From Porpolomopsis calyptriformis (Eukaryota > Basidiomycota > Agaricomycetes > Agaricales > Hygrophoraceae): 64,000 bases of DNA. The notes beneath the pieces were generated by a model, which was given only the letters and a program-made list of their open reading frames with translations, did no database searches and was not told where the DNA came from. The translations under genes and the position numbers were made by a program. Location of the stretch: assembly GCA_951640195.1 (NCBI GenBank), contig OX621176.1, positions 806,001 to 870,000 on the forward strand. The letters run 5' to 3'. Positions 17,107 to 64,000 of this stretch are shown one piece after another; the stretch's first letter is position 1, and the number at the start of each line of letters is the position of its first letter.

Positions 17107-17269
17107 AATGCCCACTTGTGAAGAAATCCAAGCCTAACTCACACAGCTGCAAGTCCAGCTTGAAAACAAAGAACAATGAGAGCGCAAGGAAGCAGAGAAA
17201 CAAGTGGAGGAAATCCAGAGGGTGGAGGAAGAGTAGCAGTTGGCAAAGGAGTCACAGGCAGCTAGAAAG
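17107..17269 (+). pseudogene. Antisense ORF of X1, 5' part (coiled coil), split by family B
   Basis: Plus-strand reading from ATG 17107: MPTCEEIQA, then Lys/Glu/Gln-rich heptad-like sequence (QLQVQLENKEQ, ERKEAEKQVEEIQRVEEE, QLAKESQAARK), with stops that look like decayed Gln or Arg codons. It resumes after the B element at 23882 (AAKAAKKEAARRVKEV). It runs opposite to gag-pol and lies between the 3' LTR and the end of pol. The same sequence, uninterrupted, is at 37987-38270 in X2. Confidence 0.55.
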
Positions 17270-17595
17270 TGTCATGGATACTTTTTCCTTTTTTCTTTTA
17301 GTCATACTTGATTAGTCTTTGTTCTGTTTACCCTTCCGCTTTACCGCTTTATATATAGAGACTAGTCACATGTACCCTCTTTCTGACTCTTCACAAGTCA
17401 CATTCCGTTTTCCGCTTTGTAATCATCCACACAACTGACTCATGTTGACTCAGGTAGTTAGTATATAAAGCCTAACCTCTAGTCAGTAGGTTAAGTTTGA
17501 TTCCTAGTTAGCTCCCTCACTCTTTAGTCGAATTCCATTTCCTCATCAGCCCCTCCAATGCGAGAAGTAAAGCCTTCGACTACCAAATCATAACA
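17270..17595 (+). repeat. Family B 5' LTR (326 bp)
   Basis: TGTCATGG to ATAACA. Contains TATATAAA at 17462-17469 and, 31 nt later, the inferred RNA start at 17493 (AAGTTTGATTC). The element is bounded by the GAAAG duplication. Confidence 0.95.
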
Positions 17596-17596
17596 A

Positions 17597-17607
17597 GAAT
17601 TGAACTT
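17597..17607 (+). promoter_or_regulatory. Self-primer binding site of family B
   Basis: GAATTGAACTT starts one base after the LTR. The 3' LTR keeps AAGTTCGATTC at the RNA start, whose complement is GAATCGAACTT. The primer site has TG and the 5' LTR copy yields CA at the same central CG, so both can derive from one ancestral CpG and the pairing was probably perfect over 11 nt. Confidence 0.7.
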
Positions 17608-17770
17608 CCTTCTTGCACAACAAATCACTCTCACTCTGGATCCCATTGAAGACTTAACAAGGTCAATCTTTTCATCTGCGGATTCAGATACTCCCTTTCA
17701 ACCAATAGTATTCCAAACCCCTGCACAATCCATCATCCCTCTTTCCCCCTCATCATCATCACTAACCTCA

Positions 17771-19207
17771 ATGTCTCAAACATCTCAACAAGAGTATGAA
17801 GCCGAACAATCCATTCCCACACCTAGACCCAGCAACATTCCCCCCACCATTCAAGAAGAAGAAGAAGATGTCATCCTATTTAATATGGAACAAGAGCTCA
17901 GAGACCTAAGAGCACAAATCGACCAGTTGCGTGGTTGGTACTACAACGAAGTTGACGTCAATGATAAGCTTCGAAAGGAGCTGAAAACCCTCAAAGAAGG
18001 TCGATGAGAAGAATCCGAACCAGCCACCCCTCCCATTACACAATGACAATCTTTACTTTGGGGACCTGGGCTTTCCCCATCAAACCCTTTCGTTTACGCC
18101 CCAAGAAGAACTCAGTCTGTCCAACCCCCTTTCCAACCATCTTTTCCCACCAACCCTCAACCAACCACCCAAATGACTGCTCCCCCTGTACTCCCTGCCC
18201 CTACCAAAATTAAAATTGCCAATCTGACTGAATACGATGGAACCCCAGAGAAGCTAGAGGACTTCATTCACCAATGTCGACTTAACTTTGTGGTCAAGGA
18301 CTACAACGACAAACAGAAGATCATCTATATACTCTCCTATCTTGGTGACGGCAACCCGCGGGCTTGGGGACGGCTATTTACTGAAACGGTTGACAAAATG
18401 AGGAACTACGTGTGGAACTACGCAACATTTTTGGACGATTTTCGAGAAGCATTCGGAAGGATCAACCCAGCGGTGAAGGCACGGATCGAGCTGGAGAAAG
18501 TAAAGATGACAGGAACGATTGAAGATTACAACCTTCAGTTTATGCAACATGCAACAAGAACTGAGTACAATGAGGCCACCCTACTTCAGTTTTACAAAGC
18601 TGGGCTCCCCCAGCCGATCCAAACACGGATTTATTCAATGGACAACATGCCATCAACCTTGCTGGACTGGATGGCGAAAGTGGCCCAATTCGAAGAACAG
18701 TACTAGGAACAACGAGCCGAACAAGCATTGTGGTCAAGTCGAAATCAAAAAGGAAAGAAGTCCGAAGCCAAGTCAAATCCCCAAGGAAACCCTTCCCACT
18801 CCATCACCACCACTTCATCCCCGATCAAACAAGAATCAAGAGAAGCCTCTCTCAAAACAGCGAAATGAGACAACTCCTCCATTACCTGCTACAACTGTGG
18901 CAAAAAAGGACACTACGCCAATGAATGTCGAAGCCCATGCACTGAAGACGTTCCGGCACATCAAGAGACCTCAACTTCTACTTGAGGAAAAGGAGGAAAT
19001 CACAGTTGAGGCAAAGGACGAAATGTCCGAATGATCAATCGGGTCGATACAGAAGAATCGGAAGCGCGGATAGAGGAAGTACTGGAGGACAATGAGAAAG
19101 AGAAAAGAATGGCAAAGAACAACTTGAAGGATATGGGAATCGTGAATAGGGACAAGGAGAGACGGGCTGCACTAGCTCGAGTGTTAAAAGAGCAAAAGGA
19201 TTTTTAG
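17771..19207 (+). pseudogene. Family B gag (capsid, CCHC; 6 stops)
   Basis: Starts at ATG 17771 (MSQTSQQEYEAEQS), with a proline-rich acidic N-terminus, a coiled-coil-like LFNMEQELRDLRAQIDQLR, a capsid domain (LTEYDGTPEKLEDFIHQC... GDGNPRAWG), and knuckle CYNCGKKGHYANEC. It ends at TAG 19205-19207. In-frame stops are TGA 18005, 18044, 18866, 18983, 19007 and TAG 18704, all reachable by C-to-T from CGA or CAG. The frame is otherwise continuous for about 479 codons. Layout and position match the gag of family E at 58636. Confidence 0.88.
19198..19204 (+). promoter_or_regulatory. Putative -1 frameshift site G GAT TTT (family B)
   Basis: Gag ends AAG GAT TTT TAG. The heptamer GGATTTT is in the slippery phase directly before the stop, and the pol frame is exactly -1. 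GGAUUUA-type sites are used in mouse mammary tumour virus, so a GGA P-site is tolerated. Confidence 0.6.
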
Positions 19208-22200
19208 TCTGGCCAAGTGCTGAAAGCCCAAGCACTTTGGCTGTGTCCCATGTATGTGTACCACCATCTATGAAAAGTTTTCGTTTTCTTGGCACACTTG
19301 AACAGGGCGAAGGTGCTCTCGAATTTTATCTTTGGATTACAAGTGCCGACAATCTTCGACGAGTAGCTATCATAGCACTCATTGACTCTGGCACCTCAGG
19401 GAATTTTATTGACGAAGCATTCATTCGTCAAATGGAGATATCGACCTATCCGTTGGATGAGGTTATACTGGTACAAAACGCTGATGGTTCCGACAACCGA
19501 GGAGGTCCCATCACGCACGATACAGACCTGTTTATCGAGGCACCAGACTTATCTTTTCGAGAACGAATCCAGTTGGAGGTCACCAACCTAGGAAGAAAAC
19601 AACAGGTCATCCTCAGCTTCCCATGGCTCTTGCGACACAACCCCACCATCAACTGGACAAAAGGCACCTTAACCTTTGCATCTGGTGACACACTGTTCAG
19701 TAGTATGCAAGTCAGAGTGTTGCCCCCACAGGAAGAACTCTACATCTTTGATTTGAGTCTGAAACATGACTCCTTTATTCGCTTGGTTGGAGTTGACCAC
19801 TCCTGACCAGTTTCCATCGAGGAGGATATCAAATCCTTCATTCCCAGTCGTTATCATAATTTCTGGTGTGTTTTCCATACCGCAGAATTCGACAAACTCC
19901 CTCCTCAACATCCCTTTGATCATGCGATCAACCTCTATCCAAATACCAAATTTCAAGTCAGAAAACTCTACCCCCTTTCTCCCTACGAACAGGTGGAACT
20001 CAACAAGTTTATTGATGAAAATCTCTGAACAGGTCAGATACATCCATCGAAATCACCTCAAGCTGCCCCTTTCTCCTTTGCGAAAAAGGCCAAAGAGATC
20101 AATGCTAAAGGTCTCAGTGCTGGTCTACGTCCTATCCAAGACTATCGCTACATCAACTCAAAGACCATTCCTGATCGCTACCCCCTTCCCCTTTTGTCGG
20201 AAATCCTCCAAGTACTGAAGCTTGCTACTGCTTCTCTTTTCACCATTATCGATATTCAATGGGGATTTAACAACATACGACTCAAGGAAGGCAACGAATG
20301 GAAAGCGGCTTTCATTACCAATCGAGGACTCTTCGAACCGACTGTTATGTTCTTTGGACTACGGAATTCCCCAGCATCCTTTCAACGAATGATAGATGTT
20401 CTTTTCAAACCAGTCTTGGACTCTGGCTGTGTTCACATTTATATTGACAACATCCTCATCATGGGTGACACCCCTGAAGAAATTCACCACTGGACCGACG
20501 AAACCCTCAAACTCATGGAGAAAAACCAACTATCTGCCAAACCTGTTAAATGCTAAATGGAAAAGACCTCAGTTACCTATCTTGGTACAATCATCAGTAA
20601 AGGTCAACTCGCCATCAACCCGAAAAAGGTAGATGCCATCATCAATTGGCTGACGCCCCAAAAACTGCGAGACCTCCAATCTTTCCTTGGCACCACTAAT
20701 TTTTGGCATCGTTACATCAAGAGTTTCTCCTCAGTAGTTCATCCTCTCTGTGGCCTTTTATGGAAAGACCAACCTTGGGATTGGTCTCCCTTGTGTCAAA
20801 AAGCCTTTGAACAGCTCAAACACCTTGTCACCACAGCCCCTGTCCTTCTTACTCCCCAGCCAGACCTTTCTTATTTTTTGGAGACTGATGCCTCTGATTT
20901 TGGTATTGGCGCGGTCTTATCCCAGAAACACGACAATGGTTGGCACCCTGTCGGCTTTTTCTCAAAGTCCTTACTCCCTGCTGAGTATAACTATCCTACC
21001 TACGATCTGGAGATGCTTGCAATTGTCACTTCCCTCAAGTACTGGCGCTATCTTTTAGAAGGCGCAAGGGATACTGTGTTGATAAAAACAGACAATTTGG
21101 CACTCAAGTATTTCATGCAGAACAGATCCCTCTCCAGACGACAAGCACATTGGATGGAATTCTTAGGCAGATTTGATTTCAATATCGAGTATTCCCCTGG
21201 AGTCAAAAACAAAGCTGATGGACTCTCTCACTGACCCGATCACCGCCGAACAGATAAAGAAGAACTAGAAGGTCAGGCCCTTCTTCCTCCTGAATGTTTC
21301 ATCAATGCTATCATTTCCATGTCTGAACCCTCTTTCATGTCAAGACTTTGTTTCCCCAACTTCAATCAAATCCCAGAGGACATTCGCATCAAATTATCCA
21401 ATTCCTCTTCCGGCTACTCCTTCACTGATGGAATTGTGAGAGATGCAGGAGATCGCATTGTCGTGCCAGCAGACGTATCGCTATGCACAGAGATAATTCG
21501 ATTGACCCACTCCCTACCCCATGGAGGCCATCCCAGAATTGAGAAGACATGTGAGCTTGTATTGCGGAACTACACCTGGAGTAGTGCTGCCCCTGACATC
21601 TGTGTATTCGTATCATCTTGTCTGACCTGTCAACAAGTCAAGCTTTACCCCTCAAAGCCTGCAGGTCTTCTGGAACCCATTCCCCCTTCGTCTTGACCTT
21701 GGGAAGAAATCACCGCCAATCTGATCACAGAACTCCCCCAATCATCTGGTTATGATGCTGTTTTAGTTGTTGTCGATCGCTTTACCAAACGCGCTCACTT
21801 CATCCTGATGACTTCAAACATTTCAGCAGAAGGAGTTGCAAAACTCTTTAGGGACAATGTATGGAAACACCATGGCTGGCCAAAGAAGATCATAACCGAT
21901 TGAGGAACTCAATTCGCTTCCAAATTCACAAAAGCTCTCAACACTCATTTGGGAATCATCTCCAGTTTATCTACCGCTTATCATCCCCAAACCGATGGTC
22001 AAACGGAATGCACCAATCAAGAACTTGAATAATACCTTCGCTTATATACCAACTTTATGCAAGACGATTGGGCCAACTGGCTATCTCCAGCTGAATTCGC
22101 GTACAACAACTGACAACACTCCTCGATGAAACACACTCCCTTTTACCTTGATACTGGCCAACATCCCTTCATCCCATCCATCCCCACGACTTCTACCTCT

Positions 22201-22767
22201 AATCCTGCAGCAGACGCCTTCCACAATCACCTCACAGAAGCCTGTGAGAAAGCCGCGAAAGCCCTAGAAACCATGGCAGAAACCATAAAGCGCTTCGCAG
22301 ATTGCAAATGGAAAGATACCCAGTTCCAAATAGGTCAATTCGTTTATCTTGATACCCGTAACTTAAAAACAGGTCGTCCAACCCTCAAACTCAATGTCCG
22401 ATGCACTGGACCATTCAAAGTTCTAGAAAAAATCGGAAGAGTCTCCTATCGCCTGGCCCTCCCCTTATCATGGAAAATACACGACGTCTTTCATGTTTCA
22501 CTCCTAAGATCCACTAACATTAACTCCGATCTCCATCCAGAAGAAGTGGACGATAGTCTCTGCCCACCTCTGGATATCATTCAAGAAAAAGAAGAATACA
22601 AGGTCGAACAAATTCTCCAACATCACGGGTCTACCCGACGTCACACATATTTGGTCAAATGGGTCAGCTATCCCATTGAAGAAGCAACTTGGGAGCCAAA
22701 GAAGAACCTTTCTCATGTGAAAGAGCGAATTCTAGAATATGAATGATCAATTCAAACGGCGACTTAA
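19208..22767 (+). pseudogene. Family B pol (9 stops): protease, RT, RNase H, integrase, chromodomain
   Basis: One frame, -1 to gag, ending at TAA 22765-22767. Stops: TGA 19804, 20026, 21232, 21694, 21901, 22111, 22744 and TAA 20554, 22030. Domains in order: protease LIDSGTSGNFID; RT with FGLRNSPASFQRM and YIDN (20440-20451) in place of YIDD; RNase H LETDASDFGIGAVLSQ; integrase zinc domain (GGHPRIEKT... CLTC); core with first Asp changed to Asn (ITANLI, codon 21718-21720), then IITD and DGQTE; chromodomain EYKVEQIL... YLVKWVSYPIEEATWEP with all three cage aromatics (Y, W, Y). Both D-to-N codons sit at former CG steps. Confidence 0.92.
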
Positions 22768-22890
22768 CCACTCTTTCATGGTATCAACTCCCCTCTTTTG
22801 AACTTTTCACTTTCATCACCTTTTCCAAACTCCGACTCATCCTTATAACCTCTTTTGCCTCCATCTTTCCCCTCAAAAGTCAACATCGCT

Positions 22891-23550
22891 ATGCCCACTG
22901 AATGCTCTCACCAAACTGCTCGCAAGTCCACTGGTGGTCGTCCACCCTGTGCTCCCCATATGTCCACAGGAGGACAACCCCCTCATCGCGCTCCCCCTCC
23001 CCTTGCTTCTACCTCATCCGCTTATGGTGAAGCTGAGCTCACCGGACAACTCTGGCAACACAACCAACGCGCACGAAACCGGGACCTCGCCATATGGCCC
23101 GAAGAAATAGTCGCACCACCCATCCCACCCGAGCAGATCATTGAGTCGTTGAAAAAGGACATTGATTACTATAAGAGTGAGATCGTGAGGTTGAATGAAG
23201 AACTGTACGGTCAGTGGTTGAGTCTAGATGGAGAAAGAAGAACGAGCAGGTACTAGCAGGAACAGGCCAAGCATTGGGAAGCAAAACACGAGGAAATCAC
23301 AAAGGTACTTCCTCATCTTGATTCCCCCACTCCCCCTGTTTTCCCAGGTCCACTCATCGTTCCCCCCGGTTCGTTGTCAAACCCCATCACCATCCCCGAT
23401 GACGACATTACTTCCCTGGCCAATATTATTTCCCTGTCGACTGCCGTCTCTGACAAGGACTTATCTTAGTCCTTCCCCTCCTCCGCATCCATCAACACTC
23501 TCGAACGCCGCCTCGAATTTCAGGACGAAATTCCTTTTAGTGTGGGTGTA
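22891..23550 (+). pseudogene. Family B third ORF with histone H3 tail-like N-terminus (2 stops)
   Basis: ATG 22891 lies 123 nt after the end of pol. The protein begins MPTECSHQTARKSTGGRPP; QTARKSTGG is identical to H3 residues 5-13 (numbered without Met), which include K9, S10 and K9's ARKS context. A second STGGQPPHRAP follows at residues 25-35. After a Pro/Ser linker comes a helical, coiled-coil-like part (PEQIIESLKKDIDYYKSEIVRLNEELYGQW... EQAKHWEAKHEEITKVL). Stops are TAG at 23254-23256 and 23467-23469, both explainable as CAG to TAG; the frame then runs to the LTR, about 220 codons in all. There is no histone fold, signal peptide or membrane segment. The proposed function (chromatin mimic) is inference. 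Confidence 0.7.
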
Positions 23551-23876
23551 TGTCACAGATACTTTTTCCTTTTTTCTTTTAGTCATACTTGATTAGTCTT
23601 TGTTCCATTTACCCTTCCGCTTTACCGCTTTATATATAGAGACTAGTCACATGTACCCTCTTTCTGACTCTTCACTAGTCACATTCCGTTTTCCGCTTTG
23701 TAATCATCCATACAACTGACTCACGTTGACTCAGGTAGTTAGTATATAAAGCCTGACCTCTAGTCAGTAGGTTAAGTTCGATTCCTAGTTAGCTCCCTCA
23801 CTCTTTAGTCGAATTCCATTTCCTCATCAGCCCCTCCAACATGAGAAGTAAAGCCTTCGACTACCGAATCATAACA
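23551..23876 (+). repeat. Family B 3' LTR (326 bp)
   Basis: TGTCACAG to ATAACA, the same length as the 5' LTR, followed by the GAAAG target duplication. It keeps CG at several places where the 5' LTR has TG. Confidence 0.95.
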
Positions 23877-23881
23877 GAAAG

Positions 23882-24543: not shown

Positions 24544-27500
24544 TCAATAGTCAGGTCTGGGTTTGTCTGGATAAGTGGAGTGGAACTCTGAGACAAGTTC
24601 TGAAGCGTGTCCTAGCTTAGTAGCAAGGATCCATAAGGATTCTTTATCAGTACCTTCATAGCCTTCCCAATGAACCAAATACAATAGTTTGCATAAACAA
24701 TGCCTATTATCAATTGTTGAGTCTAGGATTTCAGAGATCTCGAATTCCAGTTCACCATCTATGATTACTGGAGGAGGCAGAGGTTGTACTCAGTTAGGAA
24801 TTGTATCCAGTGAGGCTGGTTCCAACTGTGATACATAACAGACAGGATGGATAGCCTTCATGGAACTAGGTAAACAAAGAGTATAGGAATGGGTTCCAAC
24901 TTGGGCAATGACCTCAAAAGGACCTAAGTTTTTCTCTGAGAGTTTCTTGGAGGGTCTGGTGGTTTAGAAAAACTTGGCCTTTACAAAGGCTTGAGTTCCT
25001 ATTTCGAAATCAGGAGCTGGAATGCACTTTAAGTCAGCGTAATGCTAATAACACTTTTGAGCTTCAGAGATAGTATTTTAGAGTTCGGAGTGGAGTTTAT
25101 CCAAATCAACAGCTAGTTCTCTGGCTTGAATGGAAGTAAGATCATGTTCAGGGTGTACCAAAATATTTGGATGATAACCCTTGTTAGTAAAAAAAGGGGA
25201 TATTCCAGTAGTAGCATTCGGAGCATTGTTATATATGAATTCTAAAATAGCCAGGAGATGGGATCAGTTGTCCTGTTGATAGTTACAATACATCTGTAGG
25301 TATTGCTCCAAGGTTTGATTAACTCATTCAGTTTGTTTGTCACATTCCAGATAGTACCTGGAGGTAAAATGAAGATGCATGTCAAGGACTTTACCCAATG
25401 ACTGGAAAAAGTGGGAAACAAATTCTGAGCCTTGGTCACAGGTGACATGTGAAGGAACTCCATGTTTGGAGAACACATGGACAAGGAAAAGTTGAGTGAG
25501 TTGAGGAGCAGTGATGGTGTCAAAAGTTGGTATAAAAATGGCTTGTTTGGAGAATTGGTCAACAATGACAAGAATGGTGGAGAATCTATCAGAGTTAGGG
25601 AGTTGCTCGATGAAATCCATGGAGATGGAATTCCAAGGCTTCTCCAGAATTGGGAGTTGCTTGAGCAAACTGTAAGGTTGATGGCAAGGGACTTTGGACC
25701 TAGCGCACATAGTACAGAAGTTACAATAATCCTTTATAAAGGTCCAGAGTTCAGGCCAAGTGTATTCTTGTTGAATCAATTCAAGCGTTTTGTTTTGACC
25801 AAAATGACCAGCAATTAGATAATCATGTTTCATATGCAAAACTTCAAGTCATAAGTCATTTACATCAGGCACATAGATACGACCATCACAATGAAGGAAA
25901 CCAGAAGTGTCAATAGTCCATTGGAGATTGGAGTTGGGATTGGAGTTGGATTCGGCAACCTTCAGATGCTCCATAGCCACTGTATCATCATAGAGTGAAC
26001 TCCAAATTCCTGAATGGAGGGAGTCAACATCTATAATGAATGCAGCTTTTAGGACTGGATCAAATAAGGATAAAGCTTATAGGGATGAAGCCAGTTGCTC
26101 TGAGGTGAAAACCAGTCAGAGGTTCTGAGGATTAATACTGGCATAGTTGCTATCTCCCTCTTTAGGGTTAATGTTATATCAATGCATTAAAAAGTCTAGC
26201 TTTGCTCCAAGTTTTCCAGGATGGAAGTGAATGATGAGATTAAAGCCTGATAAAAATTCAGACCAATGAGCCTGACATCATGATAAGAGTTTGGTCATAG
26301 AGAAGTACACCAAATTCTTGTGATCGGTGACAACATCAACTGGGTCAGAAGAGCCTTCAAGGTAATGGTGCCAGTTGCAAAAACTATTGTGAATGGCTAA
26401 CAGCTCCTTGTCATGGATATCGTAATTCAACTCTGGCAGAGTTAAAGTCCGAGAATAAAATGCGATAGGATGTAATGATTCATCATCAGCGTAAGTTGAC
26501 AGAATGCCTGCTATGGCATAGTCAGAGGCATCCATTTCTACTATTAGATGTAATCCTGGAGTGAAGTTGATAAGAACAGGAGCAGAAGTGAAGGCCTGTT
26601 TCAAGGATTCAAATGCAAATTTGCATTGAGTATCAAAATTCCATGGAATGTTTTTCTAGGTCAGTCACATAAGCGGAGTTACCAATCCCAAGTAATTGTT
26701 AATAAAACGCCTATAGAAATTTCCAAAACCTAGAAATAATTGGACATCCTTGATTTTCTGTGGTTTTGGCCAATCCAAGATAATTTGAACCTTGGCAGGA
26801 TCCATGGTAATTCCATCAGGAGAAAGGATAAATCTGAGGTATTCAACTGTATCTTGATGAAAGAAACATTTCTCCAATTTTCTAAAAAGACTATTAAGTC
26901 AGAGTCTTCAGAGGACCTCACAGACATGTTTCCAGTGATCTTCAATATTGTCTGAGTAGATGAGGATATTATCAAGATATACTACAATGGAGACATCAGA
27001 GAGGTTGGAGAAAATTTCATTCATGAATCATTAAAATATTGATGGGGTGTTGCATAGACCTAAGGGCATAACCAAGAATTCAAAAGCACCATACTTGGTA
27101 TGAAAAGTGGTTTTCCATTCATCTCCTTCCGCGATCTGTACATTGAAGTATCCAATTTGCAGATCAATTTTAGTATAGATATGACCTTTGCTGGCATGGT
27201 CTAGGAGATTGGAAATGAGCAGAAGAGGGTAACAATCCTTCTTAGTGATTTTGGTAATACCTCAATAGTCCATGCATAATTGTAAGGAACCATCTTTCTT
27301 GTGGATGAAAATAATCAGAGTGCCACCTGGAGATCTGGAGGAATGTATCCAACCTTTTCTAAGGTGTTCATCCAAGAATATATGGAGAGCCTCTTGTTCC
27401 ACAACAGAAAGAGAATAGATGCATCCTAGTGGAGGTGTCGTACCTTCCTCTAGATCAATATGGTGATTGCTATAATGATGAGGAGGAAGACATTTAGATT

Positions 27501-28212
27501 TTCCTTCACTGAAAACATTAGTATAATCATGATATTCCAGAGGGACTTTAGCATAAAATGCAGAGTCTGGAGGAACATTGGAGATCTCGACAGAATGAGC
27601 TTTTGAAATATCAGCAGCTTGAAGAACAAATGATTGTGATCCTTCTTGTTTGTTAGCATATACAAATGCCACTGCCAAAATGATTGATATGGAAGGAAGA
27701 GGGGTTGGAGTCAGAGCTGGAGAGTCAAACAGAATTGCCTTGGAAGGCATAGGTGTTGACAACAAAGATGAATACATGGTGTCCCAAATGAAATACTGCT
27801 TGTAACCCAGTTAATCAATGGATTGTAGCAGGTAAGCTAGTTGAATCCAAGAACAGCAGAACAAGATGTATCCAATGGAGTGACTAAAAACTCAATATCT
27901 AGAGTTTCTCCAGACAGAAATTGAACAGGGAGGGTAACTCCCAAATCAATAGTTCTCCTTTGAGATCTATCAAATAATCGGAGTTGCTTCAGAGGAAGCA
28001 GAGATGTCTTGAGTTTGTTTTAATGAACAAAGTCCAAGTCCAAGAAACAATGTGTGGATCCTGAGTTGATAAGAGTTGGAATAGATAACAAACTGATAAA
28101 TAGAGTAATTAAAAGGAATCAGAGCAAGGAATGGAAGCATTGAGCTTTATGATAGGAGATGCAGGAATGGTTTCAATGCAGTCCACATTCCACATCTCAT
28201 GTGGACTACCTC
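24544..28212 (-). pseudogene. Family X pol (many stops): protease to chromodomain
   Basis: Same minus-strand frame as gag, ending at TGA 24544-24546. Visible parts: protease with NSGSTHCFLD (the catalytic D of DSG is Asn, near 28070), RT ([26 protein letters not shown] near 26965-26983, LGFGNFYRRFI), RNase H (VEMDASDYAIAGILS), integrase zinc domain (HMKHDYLIAGHFGQNKT... CNFCTMC), core with ISMDFIEQLP, CDQGSEF and CDKQTE, and chromodomain (EFEISEILDS... LLYLVHWEGYEGTD). At least a dozen stops, many as TGA or TAG. Most similar in style to basidiomycete chromoviruses with YLDD/YLDN RT. Confidence 0.88.
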
Positions 28213-60048: not shown

Positions 60049-63000
60049 ACAGTCCGGACAATAGCTCGTGTGTTGCGGACTCCTTTTCTATGTGTACCAC
60101 TACCCCTATGCAATCTATTTCCCAAATTCTTGGTGCACTTGATTCAAGCAAAGAAGCTTTAACCATCCCCCTTTGGTTGGAAACCACAGACACTGGTAGA
60201 CGAATTGCCGCCAGTGCATTGATAGACTCTGGCGCCTCTGGATGCTTTATAAACTGGAATTTCATGCAGGAGCGCGATATCCCTTTTTATTGATTGGAAG
60301 GACCAATCCCCATGCGGAATGCAGATGGGACAGACAACCGAGGAGGTCCCATCGAATATGCTGTAGACCTGTGGATGGAGACGCCGGATTTTCCTAGGGA
60401 ACGAACCCATTTGGAAGTGACAAATTTAGGAGATATGATACAGGTTATCCTCGGCTACCCGTGGCTCAAACGTAACGATCCCCTGGTTGACTGGAAGGCT
60501 GGAACACTGACTTCACGTCAGACTGTGGCCCCAACCAAGACTTCTCAGGCTGGAGTGATAGTGTCACAAGTAGGCTCTACATTGAATGGCGACTCCTATG
60601 CCAAGATTATCAGATTGGTCTCACTGGGAGATCATGCAAGACCCACTACCGTGGAGGAAGATATGAAAAAGTATGTGCCGAAGAAATACTGGAGGCACTG
60701 GAAGGTGTTTATGAAGACTACCTTCGATGAACTTCCCCCACGATGACCAGAATTTGACCATGCGATCGATCTCGAACCTACCTTTAGACCCAAGATCGGA
60801 AAGGTGTACAAACTCACTGAGTACGAACAGGGAAAGCTGAATGAATTCCTAGAGGAACAACTTGCAAGTGGATGAATATGACGATCAAACTCCAAACAAG
60901 CTGCCTCCTTCTTCTTTGCTGCCAAAGGTGAAGAAGTTAATGCCCAAGGACAAGATGCTGGACTACGTCCAATCCAAGACTATCACTATCTGAATGCTCA
61001 CACAATCCCAGACACCTATCCCTTACCTCTCATCTCTGAGATTATTCAACAGACCAAGTTATCAGAAGCGGAACTGTTCACAGTCATGGATATCCGATGG
61101 GGCTTTAACAATATTCGTATCAAAGAAGGAGACGAATGGAAAGGAGCCTTCAACACTCGACGAGGGCTGTTCGAGCCCACCGTTATGTTCTTTGGAATGC
61201 GAAACTCGCCTGCCTCATTTCAATGAATGATTGATGTTCTCTTCAAAGAGGTCATCGATTCCAAACAGGTCCACATCTATATTGACGATATCTTGATCAT
61301 GGGAAAGGACCTTACTGAACTCACCTATTGGACAGAACGAACTCTGGAGATCATGGAGAAGAATCAATTGTCCTGCAAACCCGTCAAGTGCCAGTTCGAG
61401 AAAAAGGAAGTGATTTATCTGGGGATGATGATCTCTAAAGGCCACATTGCCATTAACCCCAAGAAGGTTGAGGCGATCAGAACCTGGCCTATCCCCCAGA
61501 AGAAACGAGATCTCCAATCCTTCCTTGGCACTGCCAACTTTTGGTGAAGGTTTATCAAGGATTACTCCCTGATTGCTCGTCCTCTTAATGAGCTCCTATG
61601 AAAGGATCAAGAATGGATTTGGACTCCTAGGCAACAACGTGCTTTTGATACCCTCAAGAATGCACTTACCTCTGCTCCTGTTTTAAGGACCCCAAAGCCA
61701 AATCTTCCTTACCTTCTGGAGACGGATGCTTCTGGTGTTGCACTGGGTGCAGTCTTAACCCAGAAAGAGAATGACGAAGAAGATTGGCACCCCATTGGTT
61801 TCTGCTCCAAGACCCTCCTCCCAGCTGAACGAAATTACCCCACCCATGACCAAGAGCTTTTAGCCATCATATCTACCTTGAATGAATGGAGATACCTCCT
61901 GCAAGGGACACGGCAACCCATTATGATCAAGACTGACAACCAGTCCCTCCAATACTTCATGACCAGTCATCAGCTCTCCAGACGCCAGGCTAGATGGTCT
62001 GAGTTTTTAGCTCGCTTTTGGTTCAGAATCAGCTACCAGCCTAGAATCAAGAATAAGGCTGATGGACTCTCCAAATGTCCAGATCATTACCCGGAGTCTT
62101 ATGAGGAGGTGGAGGACAAGGTCCTTCTGCTAAAAGAACTTTTTGTCAATGCGCTTTTCATCAATGTGATTATCAGTTTATCATCCCCCAACTTTTTATC
62201 CAAGCTTTGCTTTCATTCCCCCCTACCCCTCGAGATCATGGCCAAAATTGAAGATCCCTCTTCCGGATACACCCACGTAGATGGCATTGTGCGCAATGCT
62301 GGAGATCGTATAGTTGTGCCAAAGGACGTATCTTTGCGCACAGAAATTATTCGATTGACCCACGACACACCCACTGGTGGCCATCCCGGCATTGAGAAGA
62401 TGAAGGAACTGCTCCTCCGTAATTATACATGGGAAGGTGCCCCACAAGATATCACCAATTACGTGAAGTCCTGCCTTGCTTGTCAACAGACCAAGGTTTA
62501 TCCACAGAAACCCACTGGACTTCTCCAACCATTACCCCCTCCTACTAAACCGTGGCAACAGATCACTGCTGATCTAATCATGGAACTCCCTAATTCAAAA
62601 GGATTTGATGCTATTCTAGTTGTGGTGGACAGATTCACCAAACGGGCTCACTTCATCCCAACAACTGGAAACTTGTCTGCTAAAGGAACTGCTGCGCTGT
62701 TTCAAGAACATGTCTGGAAGCACCATGGATGGCCAGAGAAGATCATTACTGATCGAGGAACCCAGTTCTCATCAAAATTCGCTACGTCATTGAATGAACT
62801 CCTAGGAACCACTTCTGGGCTTTCTACCACCTATCACCCCCAAACAGACGGACAAACCGAACAAACCAATCAAGAGTTAGAGCAGTACGTACGGCTCTAC
62901 ACTAACTTCATGCAAGACGATTGGAAAGATTGGTTAGCTCCAGTGGAGTTCGCTTATAACAACCGAGAACATTCCTCCACTCATCAATCCCCCTTCTGGC

Positions 63001-63626
63001 TTGAATATGGCCGACACCCTCACACCCCCTTATCAGTTCCAACCCAAACCTCAAATCCCGATGCCAACGAGTTTTACGTGCAGCTCACTAGGGCTAGAGA
63101 GAACGCTGAAGAGTCTCTCCAAAAGACCGCTAACTCAATGAAGCTCTATGCCAATCGAAAACGTCAAAAGGAACCCACATTTTACGAAGGACAAAGGGTC
63201 TGGCTTGATGCCAAGAATTTGAAAACTGGCTGGCCCGTGAAGAAACTGGATGTCCGCCAGCTCGGACCTTTTATAATCCTAAAACAAGTATCACCTGTGG
63301 CTTACCGACTAAAGCTACCGCTGTCATGGAGGATTCATCCCGTGTTTCACGTTTCACTACTCAAGGCTCTAGAAGAGAATCTCGATCTCCACCCCCCGAT
63401 TGGAGAAGATGACAATCTCTGACCACCTCCAGATGTGATCGAAGGAGAGCCTGAGTATGAAGTGGAATGTATTCTCAATCACACCCCAGGAAAACAGAAC
63501 CAACAATACCTAATCAAGTGGAAAGGCTACCCGATAGAGGCAGCCACCTGGGAACCACAATGGAACCTCAAGCATGCAAAAGATGTCTTAATGAATTATG
63601 AAAAGTCTATTCAAGCGGTGATTTAA
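60046..63626 (+). pseudogene. Family E pol (8 stops): protease to chromodomain
   Basis: One frame, -1 to gag, ending TAA 63624-63626. Stops, all TGA: 60291, 60744, 60873, 60879, 61224, 61545, 61599, 63420. Protease LIDSGASGCFIN; RT FGMRNSPASFQ and YIDDILIM (61278-61301) intact; RNase H LETDASGVALGAVLTQ; integrase zinc domain (GGHPGIEKM... CLACQQ); core with ITADLIMELP, IITDRGTQF and DGQTEQTNQELEQ, triad intact; chromodomain EYEVECIL... YLIKWKGYPIEAATWEP with Y, W and Y cage residues. RNase H to the end of integrase is open without a stop from 61602 to 63419. Confidence 0.93.
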
Positions 63627-63740: not shown

Positions 63741-64000
63741 ATGCCCCGTGAAGTTCGTTACGCCCGCAAGTCGACTGGGAGGTGTCCACCCCGAGGGAAC
63801 CCCACCGCTTCCACCTCCAACCTCCCCCCCGATTCTTCTTCCTCCTCTTCCTCGTCCGACAGTGTCTTGGTTACCTGATGGTTCAAGAAGCCAAAACGAT
63901 GTACCGATACTATCAACAAGCCGGGACGAAACCGTAACTACCGAGGGCTCCCCTTTGCCAAGGTCGAGCACCTATCTGGGTGCCCCGAAACCTACGTCCC
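63741..64000 (+). pseudogene. Family E third ORF with H3 tail-like N-terminus (partial, 1 stop)
   Basis: ATG 63741, 114 nt after pol. It begins MPREVRYARKSTGRCPPRG. Aligned from the Met, ARKSTG falls on exactly the same residues as in histone H3 (MARTKQTARKSTGGKAPRK), with R3, P17 and R18 also matching. A Ser-rich linker follows. A TGA at 63876-63878 (CGA decay) interrupts it, then WFKKPKRCTDTINKPGRNRNYRGLPF continues past the window end. Position and N-terminus match the family B third ORF. There is no histone fold in the visible part. Confidence 0.65.

Follow-up and report, generated by a model that had tools for sequence, protein, structure and literature searches.

We have found that an LTR retrotransposon family of the basidiomycete Porpolomopsis calyptriformis encodes, downstream of pol, a protein (ORF3) whose N-terminus reproduces the tail of histone H3 around lysine 9. 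The H3-tail-like sequence in this family, designated family B, exceeds chance and is under purifying selection, as judged in one genome from copies related by descent; a similar tail is present in a second family with an integrase chromodomain, family A. We consider it most likely, with some confidence, that ORF3 of families A and B carries a selected mimic of H3K9 that would be methylated by the host and read by a chromodomain, either that of the integrase or that of HP1.

The family B element and its ORF3

The window (the whole 64,000-nt stretch of contig OX621176.1 that was analysed) contains a Ty3/gypsy chromovirus of family B at 17270-23876. The element has LTRs with a target site duplication, Ty3-type gag and RNase H, and a chromodomain with cage positions. 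Its features are as follows.

17265-17269, plus strand: 5′ copy of the target site duplication, GAAAG, 5 bp (GAAAG again at 23877-23881)
17270-17595, plus strand: 5′ LTR, TG...CA, 326 bp
18173-18706, plus strand: gag capsid ORF (Pfam Ty3_capsid, 9.9e-9)
20557-21234, plus strand: RNase H part of pol (Pfam RT_RNaseH_2, 2e-35; RT_RNaseH, 1.6e-32)
22126-22746, plus strand: C-terminal part of the integrase with chromodomain (Pfam Chromo, 5.9e-12; SH3_Tf2-1, 7.7e-19)
22891-23256, plus strand: ORF3, 121 aa in the window copy, from ATG at 22891 to a TAG stop
22912-22938, plus strand: QTARKSTGG, H3K9-like nonamer (lysine codon at 22924-22926)
22963-22974, plus strand: second STGG motif, less conserved (STER in copy L090)
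23551-23876, plus strand: 3′ LTR
23877-23881, plus strand: 3′ copy of the target site duplication

The two LTRs are identical at 288 of the 300 bases compared, and 11 of the 12 differences are transitions. The pol of this copy is broken across several frames, the final pol ORF stopping at 22746. The first-pass annotation had reported an integrase chromodomain with three aromatic cage residues, and this reading holds: the chromodomain, at about 22597-22740, is intact in the window copy and has Y, W and Y at the cage positions, which were placed by means of what we take to be the cage-forming residues of HP1. Its PDB matches include Oxpecker, HP1, SUV39H1 and Clr4. On the opposite strand, at 25324-27777 (minus), we recognized by reading the relics of another gypsy-type element.

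ORF3 opens downstream of pol with MPTECSHQTARKSTGGRPP and reads MPTECSHQTARKSTGGRPPCAPHMSTGGQPPHR from its ATG at 22891. The nonamer QTARKSTGG is, as had been claimed for the ORF after pol, identical to H3 residues 5-13, and the second STGGxPP motif that had been described is present as well, starting at 22963. The extent previously given to the ORF, 22891..23550, has to be corrected, since the TAG at 23254-23256 ends the frame and 23550 is simply the base adjoining the 3′ LTR. Intact family B copies elsewhere encode an ORF3 of 192 aa. In these copies the match to H3 widens to R-x-x-QTARKSTGG-x-x-PR, corresponding to H3 residues 2-17; the first of the outer arginines is kept in 28 and the last in 31 of 40 intact copies, the other copies having mostly H or C. 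The body behind the tail is coiled-coil-like, and a search for a histone fold in one intact ORF3 yielded no Pfam family above the cut-off, only SlyX at E 0.16. A TATAA sequence lies 30-80 bases 5′ of the ORF3 start in 38 of the 40 intact copies (22811-22861 in the window) and is followed by a pyrimidine-rich run; thus ORF3 perhaps has a putative promoter of its own. Spliced expression of ORF3 was considered as well and was rejected, as there is no conserved AG 5′ of its ATG.

One genome (33.5 Mb, 17 contigs), which includes the window, was searched for further copies. A DNA search with the 660-bp stretch gave 102 candidate copies; among the best 40, which were scored, 34 have exact QTARKSTGG and six have the arginine before the lysine changed, to H (four) or to C (two). 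In a search of the whole genome with a back-translated pattern QTARKSTGG is encoded at 70 places, compared with 0 for the pattern read backwards; three of the 70 are H3 genes and 67 lie within ORF3 matches of a translated search. The translated search, made with the family B protein, gave 133 matching places, some of which are parts of single copies. By our own count 21 of these hit the coiled-coil-like part alone (28-33% identity) and two are family A, with E above 1. The first 45 residues of an intact ORF3 resemble the host H3 tail with z 7.2, a score reached by 0 of 2000 shuffles; hence the earlier statement that identity over the nonamer is unlikely to be due to chance is borne out by both the genome count and the shuffles. 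Against the PDB the first 60 residues gave a best E of only 0.02, although H3-type chains account for all 60 that were listed out of 128.

The motif is frequently altered in 17 family B copies that are older or more distantly related. By reading, the changes are mostly of the C-to-T type (R to H or C, A to T, G to S); the lysine is lost in one of these copies, and the motif is disrupted in one and falls outside the matched region in one. Protein searches and a scan of viral contigs returned no relative elsewhere; fungal sequence may be scarce in the collections searched, and the result does not count as evidence of absence.

Constraint on the tail and its distribution among families

From 88 ORF3 stretches we dropped five in which the match did not start from residue 1 and 19 duplicate ORFs. 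Among the remaining 64, the 40 whose ORF runs uninterrupted for 185-215 aa make the intact distinct set. For the 742 pairs, out of 780, in which pS reaches 0.12 or more, pN/pS is 0.06 for the nonamer and 0.21 for the whole ORF. Ranked among 184 nine-codon segments with CpG changes included, the nonamer is sixth lowest in pN and 16th in pN/pS. When CpG-type transitions are set aside and all pairs are used, it ranks first of the 184 for fewest nonsynonymous differences, at 0.0071 per codon per pair where the mean is 0.0811; its synonymous differences, 0.166 against a mean of 0.146, are slightly above average. The lysine is present in all 40 intact copies (codon AAG in 27, AAA in 13), and the S and T that follow are invariant. 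The arginine before the lysine is retained in 33 of the 40, the exceptions being of CpG type, and residues 1-78 hold no further lysine in 37 of the 40. As the copies share descent, these figures measure constraint and are not to be counted as independent trials.

Family A is represented in the window by the following features.

61878-63422, plus strand: pol fragment with integrase
63423-63626, plus strand: chromodomain frame, after a TGA in the window copy (Pfam Chromo, 9.8e-16)
63741-63878, plus strand: start of ORF3, MPREVRYARKSTGRCPPRG..., with an early stop in the window copy

The chromodomain of family A has Y/W/Y at the cage positions. In other copies ORF3 opens with MPREVRYARKSTGRRPPRG; some of these read on, one being open for at least 202 aa. 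A DNA search gave 116 candidates, of which the best 40 were scored and 23 of these 40, the window copy among them, were inspected; 22 of the 23 are readable, copy L133 being left out as misplaced. ARKSTG is kept in 16 of the 22, and in the other six the arginine is changed to C or H, once together with a change of the alanine to T. The lysine is residue 10 counting Met, at the same distance from Met as in H3. An ARKSTG-type pattern occurs at 122 places in the genome, compared with six for the reversed control. By our own count, made from the sequence ending alone, family A accounts for 41 of the first 100 places listed, family B for 56 and H3 genes for three. Over the first 45 residues the similarity of A to B has z 7.0 (0 of 2000 shuffles) and that of A to H3 z 5.4 (2 of 2000). 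The ORF3s of A and B gave no convincing alignment beyond the N-terminus; their pairwise E is about 1e-6, though the genome-wide search with B reaches A only at E above 1. The unusually good preservation of the H3K9-like stretch suggests that the elements of families A and B imitate the host's own silencing mark.

Three further families lack the tail. In family C, a gypsy family represented at C1:521541-523000, no chromodomain precedes the stop of the integrase. The body of the family C ORF3 is homologous to that of family B (E 1e-10), and there is no tail: the first 45 residues compare with H3 at z −0.6. The similarity of A to C over the same length, z 3.2 (19 of 2000 shuffles), was unexpected and comes from the stretch behind the motif. 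The contrast in the tail between C and families A and B may perhaps reflect a single event.

Family D, known from two copies, has both a chromodomain and an ORF3, the latter starting with MPATRSTRSPSPQ in copy L113 and having no H3 motif (first 45 residues against H3, z 1.2, 255 of 2000 shuffles). ARKTST occurs in one family D copy in a frame other than that of ORF3, and we take it as chance. Integrase identity is 64% for A-D, 49% for A-B and 48% for B-D, so that D is closest to A; by these identities the tail may have been lost in D or exchanged between A and B. Family D argues against a general rule that chromodomain elements encode their own ligand.

In family E, where a chromodomain is present, no H3-like ORF was found within 1.2 kb downstream in six stretches; behind the chromodomain most of them have an open frame, about 100-160 codons long and unlike ORF3. 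The two family D and the six family E stretches come from a survey in which 150 of 718 candidate chromodomain matches were scored and ~1.2 kb downstream of 10 of the 150 was read; of the other two stretches, also classified by reading, one is unassigned and one belongs to a host remodeller gene. ARKST is present in none of the 10 in any frame of that strand, and the idea that all chromodomain elements have the tail was rejected.

At C1:518200-523200 part of an element related to family B lies inside a chromodomain-less gypsy element (copies L111, L090, L110 and L089). The fragment consists of the integrase end, the tailed ORF3 and the first 94 bases of the LTR, and it is flanked by a 708-aa frame and the integrase of the chromodomain-less element. 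The nested ORF3 is followed, after about 1.4 kb, by a second one. The same pairing is found on C4, C5, C9, C11 and C12, and the composite therefore seems to have multiplied.

A proposed methylated H3K9 mimic and its alternatives

Both tailed families have a chromodomain with cage positions, and family C, which has no chromodomain, has a related ORF3 without the tail. The chromodomain reportedly binds methylated H3K9 in MAGGY-like chromoviruses. In the mechanism that we propose, ORF3 of families A and B would be a separate protein with a free N-terminus that mimics H3 around lysine 9, the tail being pared down to a single modifiable lysine. A host H3K9 methyltransferase of the Clr4/DIM-5 type would methylate this lysine, and the methylated tail would then be bound by a chromodomain, either that of the element's own integrase or that of an HP1-like host protein. 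If it is the integrase's own, ORF3 could dock on the integration complex, or could block the chromodomain until chromatin is met. The Pre-SET domain typical of H3K9 methyltransferases has one match in the genome, at C14:899559-899870, about 30 kb past the end of the window. A search of the genome for the chromo shadow domain of HP1 gave no match, a result that carries no weight because no control matched either.

The residues around the lysine that are common to A, B and H3 are A7-G12. A chromodomain holds about Q5-S10 of H3; T11 and G12 are conserved yet lie beyond this hold, and this points to a writer in addition to a reader. Clr4 has a preference for R at −1, S at +1 and T at +2 (PMC7700585), and SUV39H2 reads R8, S10, T11 and G12, with T6, A7, G13 and K14 also important (PMC8303541). 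Family B retains the residues read by SUV39H2 and Clr4, save K14. The fit of A7-G12 to this read-out, the cage positions and the Pre-SET match together make a methylated H3K9 mimic the reading that we judge most likely. The first-pass annotation had pointed in the same direction, proposing a self-encoded peptide that the host could methylate and that the integrase or HP1 could bind. Its sequence part stands: the motif is real, beyond chance, present in many copies, constrained, found in a second family and accompanied by a caged chromodomain. The tail, its constraint within one genome and its recurrence are thus observed, while methylation and binding are what we infer. That the tail would serve as a methyl-lysine lock, methylated by the host and read by the element's own integrase chromodomain so that host silencing assembles or releases the integration complex, is a tentative proposal to which we give a minor share of belief.

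About equally tentative is a decoy or capture device, in which the tail would act on host factors alone with the integrase chromodomain uninvolved, as a sponge for the methyltransferase or HP1 or by bringing particles to heterochromatin. The conserved block spans the writer footprint, including T11-G12, as such a device would have it, and the tail is kept in the ORF3 (L090/L111) that is nested in another element, where a frame-shifted chromodomain region precedes it; these nested copies, however, may be mere hitch-hikers, and both tailed families have a chromodomain of their own.

The host also has a CENP-A-like gene at C1:1282166-1282605 (L054), in which, on a predicted exon structure, the frame just upstream of the histone fold contains TARKSSGGRAPR. 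This is itself an H3K9-like motif. A tail that mimics another chromatin protein, such as this centromeric H3, or that serves a reader of acetylated or unmodified tails, is in our view improbable. Although TARKSSGGRAPR and ORF3 both have arginine at the K14 position, Q5 and T11 of family B agree with H3 and not with the CENP-A-like tail; at the DNA level the latter has 14-17 mismatches and the H3 genes 9-15 (36 bases, 12 haplotypes).

The nonamer is matched by the tail of three host H3 genes. In the one at C2:3412000-3415000 (L056) a 25-nt exon encodes just QTARKSTGG (Q5-G13), with the last codon split, and in the two on C5 the first intron is at the corresponding place after GG, the splice sites being predicted in each case. 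Between H3 gene b and one haplotype of family B, 1 of 26 bases is different; given the codon use of ORF3, the probability of coming this close to any one of the three H3 genes is 0.011, a figure to be read in light of the 19 haplotypes examined. These facts would suit the capture of a piece of an H3 gene that is kept for a reason other than a reader, for instance because a basic tail binds nucleic acid or promotes nuclear import. We think this slightly less probable still than mimicry of a centromeric H3, since the likeness goes beyond the exon borders (R2, P16, R17), at least 9 of 36 bases separate the tail from the nearest H3 gene (12 haplotypes), and a basic tail would tolerate exchange of K and R, yet K is found in 40 of 40 copies with the next S and T invariant. 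Exon capture as the origin of the tail is suggested by the Q5-G13 exon, but the similarity past the exon borders and the weak 36-base match are points against it. The tail may have arisen by capture followed by change or by slow convergence, two routes that the sequences do not tell apart.

Coincidence in a low-complexity N-terminus is strongly disfavoured: the N-termini of the A, B and D ORF3s are indeed rich in R/S/T/G/P, but shuffles reach the H3 score in 0 of 2000 cases for B and 2 of 2000 for A, the constraint coincides exactly with the nonamer, and the genome count is 70 against 0.

Relation to known systems

Compared with the H3 tail, family B is identical at residues 5-13 and in many intact copies also has R2, P16 and R17, and family A has A7-G12 together with R2, P16 and R17, its lysine standing at the same distance from Met. 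The differences are that the K4 and K14 positions of ORF3 are not lysine, that no histone fold was found, and that the body in family B is coiled-coil-like.

Viral histone mimics, as described in PMC10208167, include influenza A NS1 (ARSK), SARS-CoV-2 ORF8 (ARKS) and the HDV antigen. They share with ORF3 a short H3-tail-like motif with a modifiable lysine. ORF3 differs from what is described there in having nine such residues near the N-terminus, in belonging to an LTR retrotransposon, and in that the integrase of the same element has a chromodomain with cage positions of the H3K9me type. The basidiomycete chromovirus clades MarY1, Laccy1, Laccy2, Tcn2, Puccy1 and Puccy2 are likewise Ty3/gypsy elements with an integrase chromodomain, and the available portion of the paper that describes them makes no mention of an H3-like tail (PMC2864245).

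In another retrotransposon system a self-encoded segment replaces the histone tail at the element's own chromodomain. That segment acts in cis and there is no aromatic cage, whereas ORF3 is a separate H3K9-like protein and the cage positions are kept. LTR elements of bdelloid rotifers resemble ours in having a family-specific ORF3 after pol and modular exchange; their ORF3s are env-like, transmembrane, esterase or exonuclease proteins, and the word 'histone' is absent from the portion of text available (PMC5408684). The open-access literature that we searched yielded no histone-tail mimic in a retrotransposon.

Histone mimicry has been described for viruses, and families A and B are a candidate case in retrotransposons. 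If the tail does act as a lock read by the element's own integrase, the silencing activity of the host would itself assemble or release the integration complex.
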